Below, in pieces: positions 25,947 to 33,920 of a DNA stretch of 64,000 nt. The translations under genes were made by a program, and so were the position numbers. The stretch's first letter is position 1, and each line of letters starts with the position of its first letter. Under the pieces are notes generated by a model. It saw only the letters and a list, made by a program, of their open reading frames with translations, was not told where the DNA came from and searched no databases. The DNA is from Natrinema salaciae. Lineage in GTDB: Archaea; Halobacteriota; Halobacteria; Halobacteriales; Natrialbaceae. The stretch lies in contig NZ_FOFD01000001.1 of assembly GCF_900110865.1 (NCBI RefSeq), positions 868,001 through 932,000 on the forward strand. The letters run 5' to 3'.

Positions 25947-27362
25947 TTATTGCAGCGTCCCCGAGAGTACCTTCGCGGCGACCAACACCGGGTCCCACGT
26001 GGTGTTGAACGGCGGTGCGTACGCGAGATCGTAGTTTTCTACGTCCGAGACGGTCGCCTTCGCCTCGAGGGCCGCGACGATCGCGTGACTCCGGTGGACC
26101 GCCCCCTCGCCGTACTCGCTGACGAGGCTCGCGCCGAGGACGCGTCCGGAGTCGCGATCGGCGGTCAGGGTAACGGTGACGGTCCCGTCCTCGGGATAGT
26201 AACCGGCGCGGGAGTTCGCCGTCACCGTTTCGGTGACCGGGTCGAACCCGGCTGCGCGGGCCTCGTCGGGGTCGAGAACGCCGGTTCGGGCGGCCTCGAC
26301 GTCGAACGCCTTCACGGCCGCCGTGCCGGCGATACCGCCGCCCTCGGTCGGCGTGCCGGTGACCGTCTGTCCGACCGCACGACCGTGTCGGTTGGCGGTC
26401 AACGCCAGCGGCACGTACGCCGGGTCGCCGGTGACGACGTGCGTCGCCTCGGCGCAGTCGCCCGCCGCGTAGACGTCCGCCGCGCTCGTCTCCCGATAGA
26501 CGTCGGTGGCGATCGCACCGGTCTCGCCGAGTTCGATCCCGGCGTCTTCGGCGAGGGCCGTTCGGGGGCGAACACCGGTCCCGAGCAGCACCATCTCGAC
26601 CGCGACTCGCTCGTCGTCGGTGACGACGGCCTCGACGCGGTCGCCGCCCGCCAGCTCCCGAACGTCGGCATCGAGACGGAGCGCGACGTCCTGTTCTCGG
26701 AGGTGGTCGGCGACGTATTCGCTCGTTTCGTCGCTGAACCCCTTCAAAACGCGATCGCCGCGCTGGAACAGGGACACCTCGAACCCGTTCGCCGCCAGCG
26801 CCTCGGCCATCTCGACGCCGATGTAGCCGCCGCCGACGATGCCAACGGGGCCGGTACAGTTCTCGAGGTACCGACAGGCCGGCCCCCGATCCGGTTGCTG
26901 AAGTCCCTCGCCGTCGCGCGCTCGAGCGACGTACTCGCGGAGTTCCTTCCCGTCGCTCATCGAGCCGAGCGTGTACACGCCCTCGCGGTCGACGCCGTCG
27001 ATCGGCGGCACCACCGACTCCGATCCCGTCGCGATCAGGAGGTGTCCGTAGGGCTGGACGACCGTTCCGGCCGCGGATTCGGCAGTGACCGTCCGCGCGT
27101 CGGTGTCGATCTCGACCACCTCGTGTCCCGTCCGGAGATCGATGTCGCGCTCCTCGCGGAACTCCTCGGGGGTCACCGAGACGAGCTCCTCGAGCGACTG
27201 AATCTCCCCTTTGACGTAGTAGGGGAGTCCGCAGGCACCGTAGGAAACCCACTCGCCTCGTTCGAACACGACGACGTCGCGGTCGGGATCGTCGCGTCTC
27301 GCCTTGCTCGCCGCGGACATTCCGGCTGCGTCACCGCCGACGACGACGAACGGATCGTTCAT
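25947..27362 (-). CDS. CoA-disulfide reductase / NADH oxidase-like flavoprotein
   Basis: The 471-residue enzyme belongs to the FAD-dependent pyridine nucleotide-disulfide family with a single active Cys. It has VVVGGDAAGMSAASKARRDD at the N-terminus, SYGACGLPYYVKGEI containing the catalytic Cys (about residue 43), the NAD site VGIVGGGYIGVEMAEALAAN, and ATDVYRETSAADVYAAGDCA for FAD. A dimerisation domain ends the protein. Known relatives reduce CoA disulfide or coenzyme A persulfide, or reduce oxygen with NADH. The start at 27362 begins the Rossmann motif cleanly. It is convergent with the TrxR-like gene. Confidence 0.87.
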   Translation of the reverse strand: MNDPFVVVGGDAAGMSAASKARRDDPDRDVVVFERGEWVSYGACGLPYYVKGEIQSLEELVSVTPEEFREERDIDLRTGHEVVEIDTDARTVTAESAAGTVVQPYGHLLIATGSESVVPPIDGVDREGVYTLGSMSDGKELREYVARARDGEGLQQPDRGPACRYLENCTGPVGIVGGGYIGVEMAEALAANGFEVSLFQRGDRVLKGFSDETSEYVADHLREQDVALRLDADVRELAGGDRVEAVVTDDERVAVEMVLLGTGVRPRTALAEDAGIELGETGAIATDVYRETSAADVYAAGDCAEATHVVTGDPAYVPLALTANRHGRAVGQTVTGTPTEGGGIAGTAAVKAFDVEAARTGVLDPDEARAAGFDPVTETVTANSRAGYYPEDGTVTVTLTADRDSGRVLGASLVSEYGEGAVHRSHAIVAALEAKATVSDVENYDLAYAPPFNTTWDPVLVAAKVLSGTLQ

Positions 27363-27634
27363 ACGGGCCGATATGAAGGCTACGCATACATAGGATTGGG
27401 AAACGGCACTGGGTGTGCGAAACGCGACGGCGCGTCGCCCCCGCGACACCTGTCTCGAACCCCGTGGTCGGGTTCGAGCGGTCGACTCCGACCGCAGAAG
27501 GGACGAGATCGACGGATTCGGGACCAACAGCCCCGACCGGCAGCGAGATCCCACGCGAGAAGTGAGTCCGAGGTCGTTGGCGAGCGTCGGGAGAGTAGCG
27601 GTGACGGACGGCGTCCGGCCCGGTCCGACAGCGG

Positions 27635-31600: not shown

Positions 31601-31979
31601 ACGGCACGAGCCCGTGTGCCTCGGTCTCCACCACGCAGGTCCGGCACTCGCTGCGCGGACCGATCCCGTCACTACAGTCGCCGTCGCGGTCGTAGTGGCA
31701 GAGCGCGGGGACATCGGCATCGCCGTCGACGGCGTCCGCGCCGGGAGCGACGCTGACGACGTCGTCGTCGACCGCCTGCATCGCGTCGATGATCGTCGAC
31801 CCCGGCGGGACGGTCACCGGTTCGCCGTCGACCGTCACGGTCGTCGGCTCCCCGCCGCGAGTGCCGACGGCAGGATCGTTCGCGGTCCCGGTCTCGAACT
31901 CGGCCGTGACCGGCGTCTCTGTGCGCGGATCGTCGAGGTCCGGCACCCCCGGTAGCGGATCGTTCGTGTTCGTGCTCAT
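28644..31979 (-). CDS. fdhA: Formate dehydrogenase alpha subunit, molybdopterin, Cys-type
   Basis: The 1111-residue protein oxidises formate at a Mo- or W-bis-MGD site. It begins with a NuoG-like part: a 2Fe-2S ferredoxin domain with Cys94, Cys102, Cys112, Cys115 and Cys128, and a His-Cys cluster near residues 160-173. Two 4Fe-4S motifs follow (CILCNRCVDGC at 215-225, CVSCGHCATVC at 259-269). After an acidic linker (about 300-345) comes the catalytic half, with CGFCAVGC (404-411) for another 4Fe-4S and NCARLCHSS, where Cys534-His535 replace Sec-His of E. coli FdhF. The end has the KVTKRVGEGTLFIPMHFAAG dinucleotide-binding region. It overlaps the NuoF-like gene by 4 nt (ATGA). Assimilatory nitrate reductase is a weaker alternative. 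Confidence 0.9.
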   Translation of the reverse strand: MSTNTNDPLPGVPDLDDPRTETPVTAEFETGTANDPAVGTRGGEPTTVTVDGEPVTVPPGSTIIDAMQAVDDDVVSVAPGADAVDGDADVPALCHYDRDGDCSDGIGPRSECRTCVVETEAHGLVPSCSFPAADGLAVETDTPAAAESRRVNLDLVLSNHNLRCTTCNGNGRCELQRTAISEGVDHPRYGVFDERDEYEPLDDTSSFIQIDRNKCILCNRCVDGCNDVQAEGVLRIEGHGEDTRIGFQSDAETMADSDCVSCGHCATVCPTGALTEKGIGGAGTLPLPGFTQRNSIGRVIDHEDAETLDDTTAPNRTPAPGGDVAVGAGATTNGDRRGVAAFVENAKRTLETTAGEYGRKAFLAGEHTAESIAANTLPEGYLFDIADAVSDYRLRKIDTAETTCGFCAVGCRFEMWGKDGDSLGVMPVDDPDDAPANNFSTCVKGKFGHEFANSENRLTTPLVRNESGELEEATWDDALDLVAERLSEIRDEHGVDAVGSLASSKGSNEEAYLVQKFARQVLGSKNVDNCARLCHSSTVAALQQTVGYGAMTNRINEDVGEADAYLISGSNTTESHPVLATRIKRNVRDGADLVVFDPRKVGIAEHADQYTRTTPGYDVTWLNGMIRYIIEHDLHDEAFIERNTKNFDELKEKVQAFTPERVEDLAGVSPEELASAAETLADADSVVFGWAMGMTQQRTGTENLLAMADLALVLGQLGKPGAGLSPFRGQNNVQGGGGDMGTLPGSLPGYQDPADDAVGEKFGVVWGERPPEEPGLKVPEMLAEAREGNLRGMYVVGENPALSEPDVDHAGAALAALEFLVVQDIFVTETAEHADVILPAATSPEKHGTFTNTERRIQRVRPSAEPPGSARQDWEITQALAERLGYDWDYDHPREIMDEISDLTPIYGGVSYDRLEEGEQHGLQWPVPDADHPGTPYLYDYEEGDFNFEDGKARFVPADGGHPGELPDEEYPLTLTSGRVLYHWHTGQITRRVEGLMDHVGESFVEIHPEAAAELGVADGEYVRVESRRGEIVVKAKVTKRVGEGTLFIPMHFAAGAVNKLTQETFDPQAGIPEYKISSVRLEALGAETEETVLRTPDVGSSDGPRLADDA

Positions 31980-33505
31980 AGGTTCTCGGTACAGGTGCCG
32001 CTCGGACAGCGGCCGTCGGCGTGCGCGCGAAACGTCGGTTCGAACTCGTCTATCGCCGTGATCACCGGGCGCGGCGCGTGCGCGCCGATCCGGCAGTTGC
32101 TCGTCCGCTCCATCGTGCGGCCGAGTTCGCGGATCTTCGCGAGCTCGAACGACCCCCGGTAGACGTCGCGCAGCAGTTCGGTGAGCTGTTTCGTCCCCTC
32201 GCGTCCGGGGACGCAGCGGCCGCTGTTCTCGGTGGCCGCGAACCGCGCGCGCTCGCCGGCCGTCGCGACCGCACACCGGTCCTCGTTCAGCAACTCGACC
32301 ACACCCTCCGTCCCGAGGCCGGCCGCAGCCAGCGTCTCCGCCGTCGCGCTCACCTCGAGCGTCTCGGTGATGCCGCCGAAGATGTCGCCCACACAGGCCA
32401 TCTTGAGCGCCCCGTCGAGTGCGACGGCCTCGCGGACGGCCGCGAGGCTGTCGTCGGACGCGAGTTCGACGGTCGCCGGTGCCGCCACGTCGCCGGTGAC
32501 GGTGAACAGGCGGGTGCCGGGATCTCGGTCGGTTCCGGACGGCGCGTCGTCCTGGAGCGCCCGTCGGGCCTGGAGCACCGTCCGCACGGAGTGGACCGCC
32601 GTCGGGCGGCCGTACAGGCCGTGGACCGCCGGCGACGGCGGCTGGATCCGCGGTTCGATCCGGTCGTTGCCCTCCAGGGCTTCGAGCGCCGCGGTCGGCT
32701 CGCCGGCGCGGTACTCGTCGGGGCCGGCGACCAGCTGCGGAACGACGGGGAGGACGTCGGCGGCCGCGTCGACGGCCGACTCGAGGTGGCGGTGGAGCCC
32801 GGTCTCGGTCTCGTTGACGGAGAGCACCGCGTCGACCGCGCCGACGTGCTCGGCGATCGCCGCGATCCCGTCGAGGACGGCGATCGGCGCACCTTCGAGC
32901 AGCGTCCGGTCGACCCGCTGTCGGTCGTCGGTATCGTTGGCGTTGACGACGACGACGGGGTCGCCGTCCGTCTCGCGGATCGCGGTCCAGGTCTCGTCGA
33001 CCGCCTCGTCGGCGGCCGCGTCGCCGCGACCACGGCCGAGCAATCCAGCGTCACCGACCGCGGCCGCATCGCGCTCGAGCGACACGAGGTCGTAGTCGTC
33101 GGGGGCCAGCGGGTCGACCCACCCGCACGGCCCGAGGACGTCACGCCGGCCGACGGACAGCGGGCCGGTTTCGGGGACGGGAAGCGACCCCGTTCCCGGG
33201 TCGTGTTCGACGACCGCGGCGGCGGCGTCGGCCAGTACCTCACCGGTCTCGAGCGCGTCGACGACGGCGTCGACCGTCTCGGGACCGGGGTCGGGATGGA
33301 AGGCCGTACGGCCGTCGACGGTGGCGAGCACCAGCGGCTCGTACGCGGCGATTCCAGTCGGTCCCGTCCGAACGACCGGGACGGCGTCGCTCGTCCGGCG
33401 CGCGGTTTCGAAGGCGGGTTCGCGGTCGGCGGCCGTCGGGTGGGTCGAGACCCTGCAGACCGGCGATCGATCGCCCGCGGGCGCAGTATCGGTCACTGCT
33501 ACCAT
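31976..33505 (-). CDS. Degenerate NuoF-like subunit of formate dehydrogenase
   Basis: The 509-residue protein is a NuoF/HoxF homologue with eroded motifs. GLLGRGRGDAAADEAVDETW stands where NuoF has the GRGGAGFP FMN loop, and NANDTDDRQRVDRTLLEG where NuoF has NADExxPG...DR.LLEG. An SLBB-like region contains GRPTAVHSVRTVL. The N3 cluster motif ESCGxCxPCRxG reads ENSGRCVPGREG, leaving Cys431 and the distal Cys471; CPSGTC (500-505) ends the protein. FMN, NADH and 4Fe-4S binding are therefore doubtful. It is cotranscribed with fdhA (ATGA overlap). It may be a structural partner using another electron acceptor. Confidence 0.83.
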   Translation of the reverse strand: MVAVTDTAPAGDRSPVCRVSTHPTAADREPAFETARRTSDAVPVVRTGPTGIAAYEPLVLATVDGRTAFHPDPGPETVDAVVDALETGEVLADAAAAVVEHDPGTGSLPVPETGPLSVGRRDVLGPCGWVDPLAPDDYDLVSLERDAAAVGDAGLLGRGRGDAAADEAVDETWTAIRETDGDPVVVVNANDTDDRQRVDRTLLEGAPIAVLDGIAAIAEHVGAVDAVLSVNETETGLHRHLESAVDAAADVLPVVPQLVAGPDEYRAGEPTAALEALEGNDRIEPRIQPPSPAVHGLYGRPTAVHSVRTVLQARRALQDDAPSGTDRDPGTRLFTVTGDVAAPATVELASDDSLAAVREAVALDGALKMACVGDIFGGITETLEVSATAETLAAAGLGTEGVVELLNEDRCAVATAGERARFAATENSGRCVPGREGTKQLTELLRDVYRGSFELAKIRELGRTMERTSNCRIGAHAPRPVITAIDEFEPTFRAHADGRCPSGTCTENL

Positions 33506-33647: not shown

Positions 33648-33920
33648 ATGACGACCCCGCGATTCGAAGCGGTGAAGACGGAAGCCGCGTCGGCACTTAC
33701 GGACGACGACCTCCGCTCGGTGTACACCGGCCTCGTCCACGAGGACGGTCGGCACGAGTACTACCTCGGGAACGACACCGAAGCCGCCGCCGAACTCCGC
33801 GAGGCCGCGGCGGTCCAGCTCGGAATGCTGACGCGCGTCCTCGCGGACCGCTCCGACAGCACCGTCGAGGAGATCGCGGAACTCGCCGTCGAACGGGCCG
33901 AAGGGATGGAACTGCGGTGA
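33648..33920 (+). CDS. Small helical protein next to formate dehydrogenase
   Basis: The 90-residue protein is acidic and mainly helical: LTDDDLRSVYTGLVHEDGRH, ELREAAAVQLGMLTRVLADR and VEEIAELAVERAEGMEL. No catalytic, cysteine or membrane motif is present. It is divergent from the formate-dehydrogenase operon across about 140 bp and may share regulation. I start at ATG 33648, as the in-frame reading further upstream enters the divergent promoter. Function is unknown; an adaptor or chaperone role is only a guess. Confidence 0.7.
   Translation: MTTPRFEAVKTEAASALTDDDLRSVYTGLVHEDGRHEYYLGNDTEAAAELREAAAVQLGMLTRVLADRSDSTVEEIAELAVERAEGMELR

Follow-up and report, generated by a model that had tools for sequence, protein, structure and literature searches.

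HydB of electron-bifurcating hydrogenases is among the closest known counterparts of the protein considered here. In HydB of A. mobile, FMN and NAD are contacted by K177, F180, N194, E197, E287 and F307, and a second metal site comprises Cys438, His525, Cys531 and Cys536 together with a semi-conserved Cys476 (PMC8880783). In T. maritima HydB the site, with three cysteines and one histidine, was assigned as zinc, and it is not conserved in Nqo1 (PMC9499530). Formate dehydrogenases fall into active-site classes that include CH...RGQ/H and CQ...RGH, and in B. subtilis ForE mediates the use of menaquinone (PMC8808070). No description of this NuoF-like protein was found in the haloarchaeal formate dehydrogenase literature surveyed, which lay mostly outside the subscription journals.

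The window, a stretch of 64,000 nucleotides from Natrinema salaciae, carries a NuoF-like gene next to fdhA (Table 1). Public records name its product "NADH-ubiquinone oxidoreductase-F domain protein". Our analysis suggests that this HydB-derived subunit has lost the handling of flavin and NAD, and that it is probably kept as a scaffold.

Table 1. Positions in the window of the NuoF-like gene, its cofactor-site remnants and its neighbours
Feature	Position	Strand	Remark
HydB/NuoF-like subunit (P0001), 509 aa	31976..33505	(-)	without recognisable FMN/NAD site
Former thioredoxin-like 2Fe-2S cysteine stretch, aa 48-53	33347..33364	(-)	intact: C-x3-C
Former FMN loop GRGRGD, aa 157-162	33020..33037	(-)
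Former FMN/NAD loop NANDTDD, aa 188-194	32924..32944	(-)
B2 metal-site ligand Cys411	32273..32275	(-)
Former N3/B1 4Fe-4S loop ENSGRCVPGREG, aa 426-437	32195..32230	(-)	Cys428 to Ser, Cys434 to Gly
Fourth N3/B1 ligand Cys471	32093..32095	(-)	retained
B2 metal-site ligand His495	32021..32023	(-)
CPSGTC	31991..32008	(-)	B2 metal-site ligands Cys500 and Cys505
fdhA, 1111 aa	28644..31979	(-)	TIGR01591, 810.6 bits (cut-off 666)
Divergent 90-aa protein	33648..33920	(+)

Results

The likeness to NuoF that had been noticed by eye was borne out by both domains and fold. Pfam Complex1_51K (1e-12) and NADH_4Fe-4S (2.4e-18) matched above their cut-offs, as is expected of the complex I 51-kDa/NuoF superfamily, and the NCBIfam NuoF equivalog model gave 7.5e-33 and 113 bits, far below its cut-off of 559. 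A sequence search of the PDB returned HydB chains first (best 7t2r_B, 7e-43), with FdsB 6tg9_B at 8.6e-22. The AlphaFold model (pTM 0.84, mean pLDDT 78.7) aligned best with structures of NfnB, HydB and FdsB (TMq 0.85 for 9n5u_B and 0.81 for 7p8n_B). The protein ends in CPSGTCTENL; most of the intact relatives are longer, at about 570-690 aa. A search of the window genome found no second homologue.

In the alignment, the motifs of the subunit are GRGRGD, NANDTDD, ENSGRCVPGREG and CPSGTC, and those of the intact reference are GRGGAGFPTG, NADEGDPGAF, ESCGKCVPCREG and CPAKIC. The motifs stand where the sequence-only reading had placed them, and the subunit lacks both the FMN loop GRGGAGFP and the NADExxPG of a functional NuoF. 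The FMN loop, the NAD loop and the N-terminal 2Fe-2S cysteines were altered in all of the 177 aligned haloarchaeal family members (a number that includes duplicates because genomes overlap between sources) as compared with 21 intact relatives. Because the FMN and NAD changes are present throughout the whole family, they are not due to chance or sequencing error. Intact FMN/NADH residues were also sought among the homologues as evidence against the reading; none occurred within the family, and the intact proteins form a separate subfamily that is about 25-33% identical. Five of the six residues that contact FMN and NAD in HydB are changed (K177T, F180A, E197D, E287P and F307S), N194 alone being kept. 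GRG, Asn188, Asp199 and GGxxGG are near-invariant in the family and, given their retention, weak or altered ligand binding is possible.

One hypothesis is that the loops, though altered, have kept the ability to bind FMN and NAD, in which case the enzyme would be cryptically NAD+-linked. The retained fold, Asn188 and some of the loop glycines are consistent with this. However, the contact residues are largely changed, NADExxPG is lost, and in the window's subclade the N3 ligand set through which electrons would pass to FMN is incomplete, so that we regard the hypothesis as hardly credible; NAD+ reduction through the NuoF-like subunit is, judged from the sequence, unlikely. Alternatively, the FMN/NAD cleft might have been rebuilt for another ligand or protein (a regulator, a carrier or the FdhA arm), which would give the subunit a role beyond scaffolding. 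At twelve positions the family has a fixed residue that the intact relatives do not share, one of these positions being a column that they lack; residues such as D162, H305, R308, N427, R430 and R479 argue for a rebuilt cleft, as does the retention of GRG and Asn188. The same pattern would be expected, however, had the surface become fixed anew as an interface between subunits. No candidate ligand has emerged, and the loops are poorly modelled in the subunit and in an intact control. We think that a rebuilt cleft of this kind is unlikely.

Low model confidence was considered as a sign of lost cofactors and rejected. The former cofactor loops at 159-164, 263-295 and 428-435 have low confidence in the model of the subunit. 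The intact control, the HydB-like protein of locus L091, was modelled from a similarly shallow alignment and falls below pLDDT 50 in the loops for FMN and NAD (204-206, 234-238 and 319-321); because it is equally low there, low loop confidence is not evidence of cofactor loss. L091-L094 are haloarchaeal loci in which an intact HydB-like gene has in its vicinity a gene whose motifs resemble those of the [NiFe]-hydrogenase large subunit.

The loss of two of the four 4Fe-4S cysteines, likewise proposed beforehand, was located in the aligned columns: Cys428 and Cys434 are replaced, Cys431 and Cys471 are kept (a state denoted SCGC), and the four-cysteine N3 set of a functional NuoF is absent. Among the 177 sequences the states were CCCC in 95, SCGC in 69, CCGC in 12 and CSCC in 1. 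The two-cysteine loss is shared by a clade comprising 48 non-redundant rows and is therefore not a product of chance or sequencing error; the alignment revealed no new conserved cysteine gained in the window's subclade. Since about half of the family has the N3/B1 ligands, the subunit may still carry electrons in those members.

The C-terminal CPSGTC had been offered either as a source of substitute cysteines or as a leftover from a NuoF of the ferredoxin-linked type. Our reference numbering reproduces all five published HydB B2-site residues, and Cys438, His525, Cys531, Cys536 and Cys476 of HydB correspond to Cys411, His495, Cys500, Cys505 and Tyr449 of the subunit. The ligands C, H, C, C are present in 174 sequences, the last cysteine alone being missing in the other 3. 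By alignment, the Cys3-His set matches the HydB B2 site, a putative zinc or 2Fe-2S site. The idea of stand-in 4Fe-4S ligands was discarded: the identical Cys/His set occurs in members with all four N3/B1 cysteines, and CPSGTC belongs to the separate B2 site. The leftover explanation fits, in that HydB/NfnB outscore FdsB and complex I NuoF and the B2 ligands are kept.

Matches to the subunit were found in 156 of 391 genomes sampled from the class, a count that includes a small separate set with 30-33% identity and longer frames. A scan of contigs gave 119 loci, the best 80 of which are all haloarchaeal by title. When 393 genomes of the phylum were searched, the family appeared at full length with E ≤1e-176, and the next full-length matches, of about 600 aa or more, stood at about 1e-83. 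In a plasmid collection, the sole bacterial sample, non-haloarchaeal matches had <30% identity among the matches listed. Laboratory haloarchaea with a window-type pair include Haloarcula hispanica and H. marismortui. A tree was built from 161 rows, of which 140 represent the family thinned at 93% identity, with the N3 loop and the fourth-ligand column left out; it came from a quick search, with several long branches flagged. The family forms one clade (SH-aLRT 100, stem 1.76), as do the SCGC rows (SH-aLRT 99), and the two-cysteine loss in the window's subclade is, on this tree, a single event. The CCGC state requires five changes, at least four by the starred branches. As the tree is drawn, N3/B1 ligand loss is later than FMN/NAD loss, with at least four further losses of one ligand.

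Pairwise dN/dS against close relatives was 0.26-0.36 by NG86 and, with synonymous sites near saturation, about 0.08-0.12 by YN00, which indicates that the NuoF-like gene is under purifying selection. A functionless remnant heading for loss would agree with the repeated loss of cluster ligands, but not with the low dN/dS, the many residues invariant over deep divergence, or the conserved start/stop overlap with fdhA; this explanation is very improbable. The overlap, recorded earlier from the window, takes the form ATGA there; among the 65 loci of the subclade that could be read, it is ATGA in 62 and GTGA in 3.

FdhA joins a NuoG/HydA-like N-terminus (2Fe-2S, His-Cys3 4Fe-4S and 2x 4Fe-4S) to a Mo/W-bis-PGD formate dehydrogenase, and thus has the NuoG-like arm and, with CH...RGQ, the FdsA-like active site found in FdsABG. 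None of the cluster cysteines of the arm varies among about 100 loci that include every N3 state, and the formate dehydrogenase motifs are kept at the loci where the catalytic part was covered. An FdsG/NuoE-like 2Fe-2S partner was not found in the window genome; its two PF01257 matches are both partial and lie in proteins that, by eye, are CbiX-ferredoxin-like and small ferredoxin-like. Downstream of fdhA, at 25950-27554 (-), is a CoA-disulfide-reductase-like flavoprotein, below family cut-offs, which was not seen as a conserved neighbour among the surveyed loci.

The neighbourhood survey used a composition filter, by which some genes were missed. The gene of the 90-aa protein, which has no match in Pfam, NCBIfam or the PDB, adjoins the pair in 56 of 68 window-subclade loci, 2 of 95 CCCC loci and 0 of 12 CCGC loci. 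It occurs in 72 of the 391 genomes, 69 of them also with a NuoF-like match (Fisher 7e-29, ignoring relatedness), and this co-occurrence by itself suggests a functional link to the NuoF-like/FdhA pair. In deep-branching operons the arm gene may be split, and genes for a DUF1641 protein and for a second molybdopterin protein may be present. The latter is encoded near fdhA at L053, L054, L059, L062, L064, L078, L089 and other CCCC loci; it keeps CH, but RGQ/RGH is replaced by RGL (RGP in one case), and it follows a DUF1641 gene at L053, L054, L059, L062, L064 and L089.

The DUF1641 gene raises the possibility that electrons reach the quinone pool through a ForE-like subunit, as in Bacillus ForCE. 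Such a gene is found nearby in 20 CCCC loci, and the role of ForE in B. subtilis gives the route a precedent. However, no DUF1641 cluster member was seen in the neighbourhoods of window-subclade or CCGC loci, the only DUF1641 match of the window genome (L106:8017-9822 (-)) lies just downstream of an SQR-like FAD oxidoreductase, and the active site of FdhA is not the CQ...RGH of ForC. A menaquinone-linked enzyme is thus quite improbable, and assignment of the window pair to ForCE was rejected on the same observations. For the subclade of the window, the survey found no gene that would indicate a particular acceptor.

Discussion

Sequence, selection and synteny support a HydB-derived formate dehydrogenase subunit in which FMN/NAD handling was lost family-wide and the N3/B1 site was partly lost in the window's lineage. 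We think it likely that this subunit is kept as a scaffold and that electrons leave FdhA directly, most plausibly to ferredoxin. The ancestor would have been a HydB-type subunit with a ferredoxin-domain tail. The ancestor of the haloarchaeal family would then have shed this tail together with the FMN/NAD motifs and the 2Fe-2S ligands of the thioredoxin domain, while retaining the fold, the Cys3-His set of B2 and the position next to FdhA, and the window's subclade would have additionally lost two of the four N3/B1 ligands. With these gone, the window-type subunit is expected to be free of redox cofactors, barring a 2Fe-2S cluster at B2. Because parts for cofactors were lost and the protein is nevertheless kept by selection, it probably holds the enzyme together, most likely on the NuoG-like arm of FdhA. 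Formate electrons would pass through FdhA's own five clusters and exit from that arm to a diffusible carrier, perhaps ferredoxin. We infer the scaffold role, the absence of bound FMN and NAD, the exit route and the acceptor from a NuoF-type fold without recognisable FMN/NAD site, under selection in a formate dehydrogenase operon; for these reasons a structural or adaptor subunit with an acceptor other than NAD+, as first proposed from the sequence, is still the best reading.

A bolder version is conceivable, if doubtful: haloarchaea would possess a formate dehydrogenase class of their own, with a HydB that became free of electron cofactors and is held by the B2 (zinc) site, a rebuilt cleft that docks a new partner, possibly the 90-aa protein, and direct reduction of ferredoxin by FdhA.

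Metabolic models that rely on the current label could be misled into an NAD+-linked route of formate oxidation for as many as about 40% of the haloarchaeal genomes sampled. The family also provides a natural series, with four-, three- and two-cysteine N3/B1 states beside an FdhA whose cluster ligands do not change, in which the functions of a NuoF subunit apart from electron transfer can be explored, and it makes the question of the acceptor directly testable.

Among known systems, the subunit shares its fold, the B2 Cys3-His set and its best sequence matches with HydB, NfnB and StnB (7t2r, 7p8n, 7q4v, 9n5u and 8oh5), and its N-terminal domain aligns with the thioredoxin-like domain of HydB/NfnB. 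Unlike these, it has no recognisable FMN/NAD site and no thioredoxin-domain 2Fe-2S cysteines, its N3/B1 ligands are incomplete in the window's subclade, and its partner is FdhA; the C-terminal 2x4Fe-4S ferredoxin domain of HydB is also absent. FdsB of the NAD+-dependent FdsABG (6tg9, 6vw7) is likewise NuoF-like and paired with an FdsA-like catalytic subunit, but has NADH bound in 6vw7 and is less similar to the subunit than HydB is. Complex I NuoF/Nqo1 has the core fold and Pfam domains in common with the subunit, which scores far below the NuoF equivalog cut-off. ForCE, which is menaquinone-linked, also combines a formate dehydrogenase bearing a NuoG-like arm with a noncanonical partner; its DUF1641 partner has a counterpart in some deep haloarchaeal operons but none beside the window pair, and with CQ...RGH in ForC as opposed to CH...RGQ in FdhA, the two enzymes differ in class as well as in partner.
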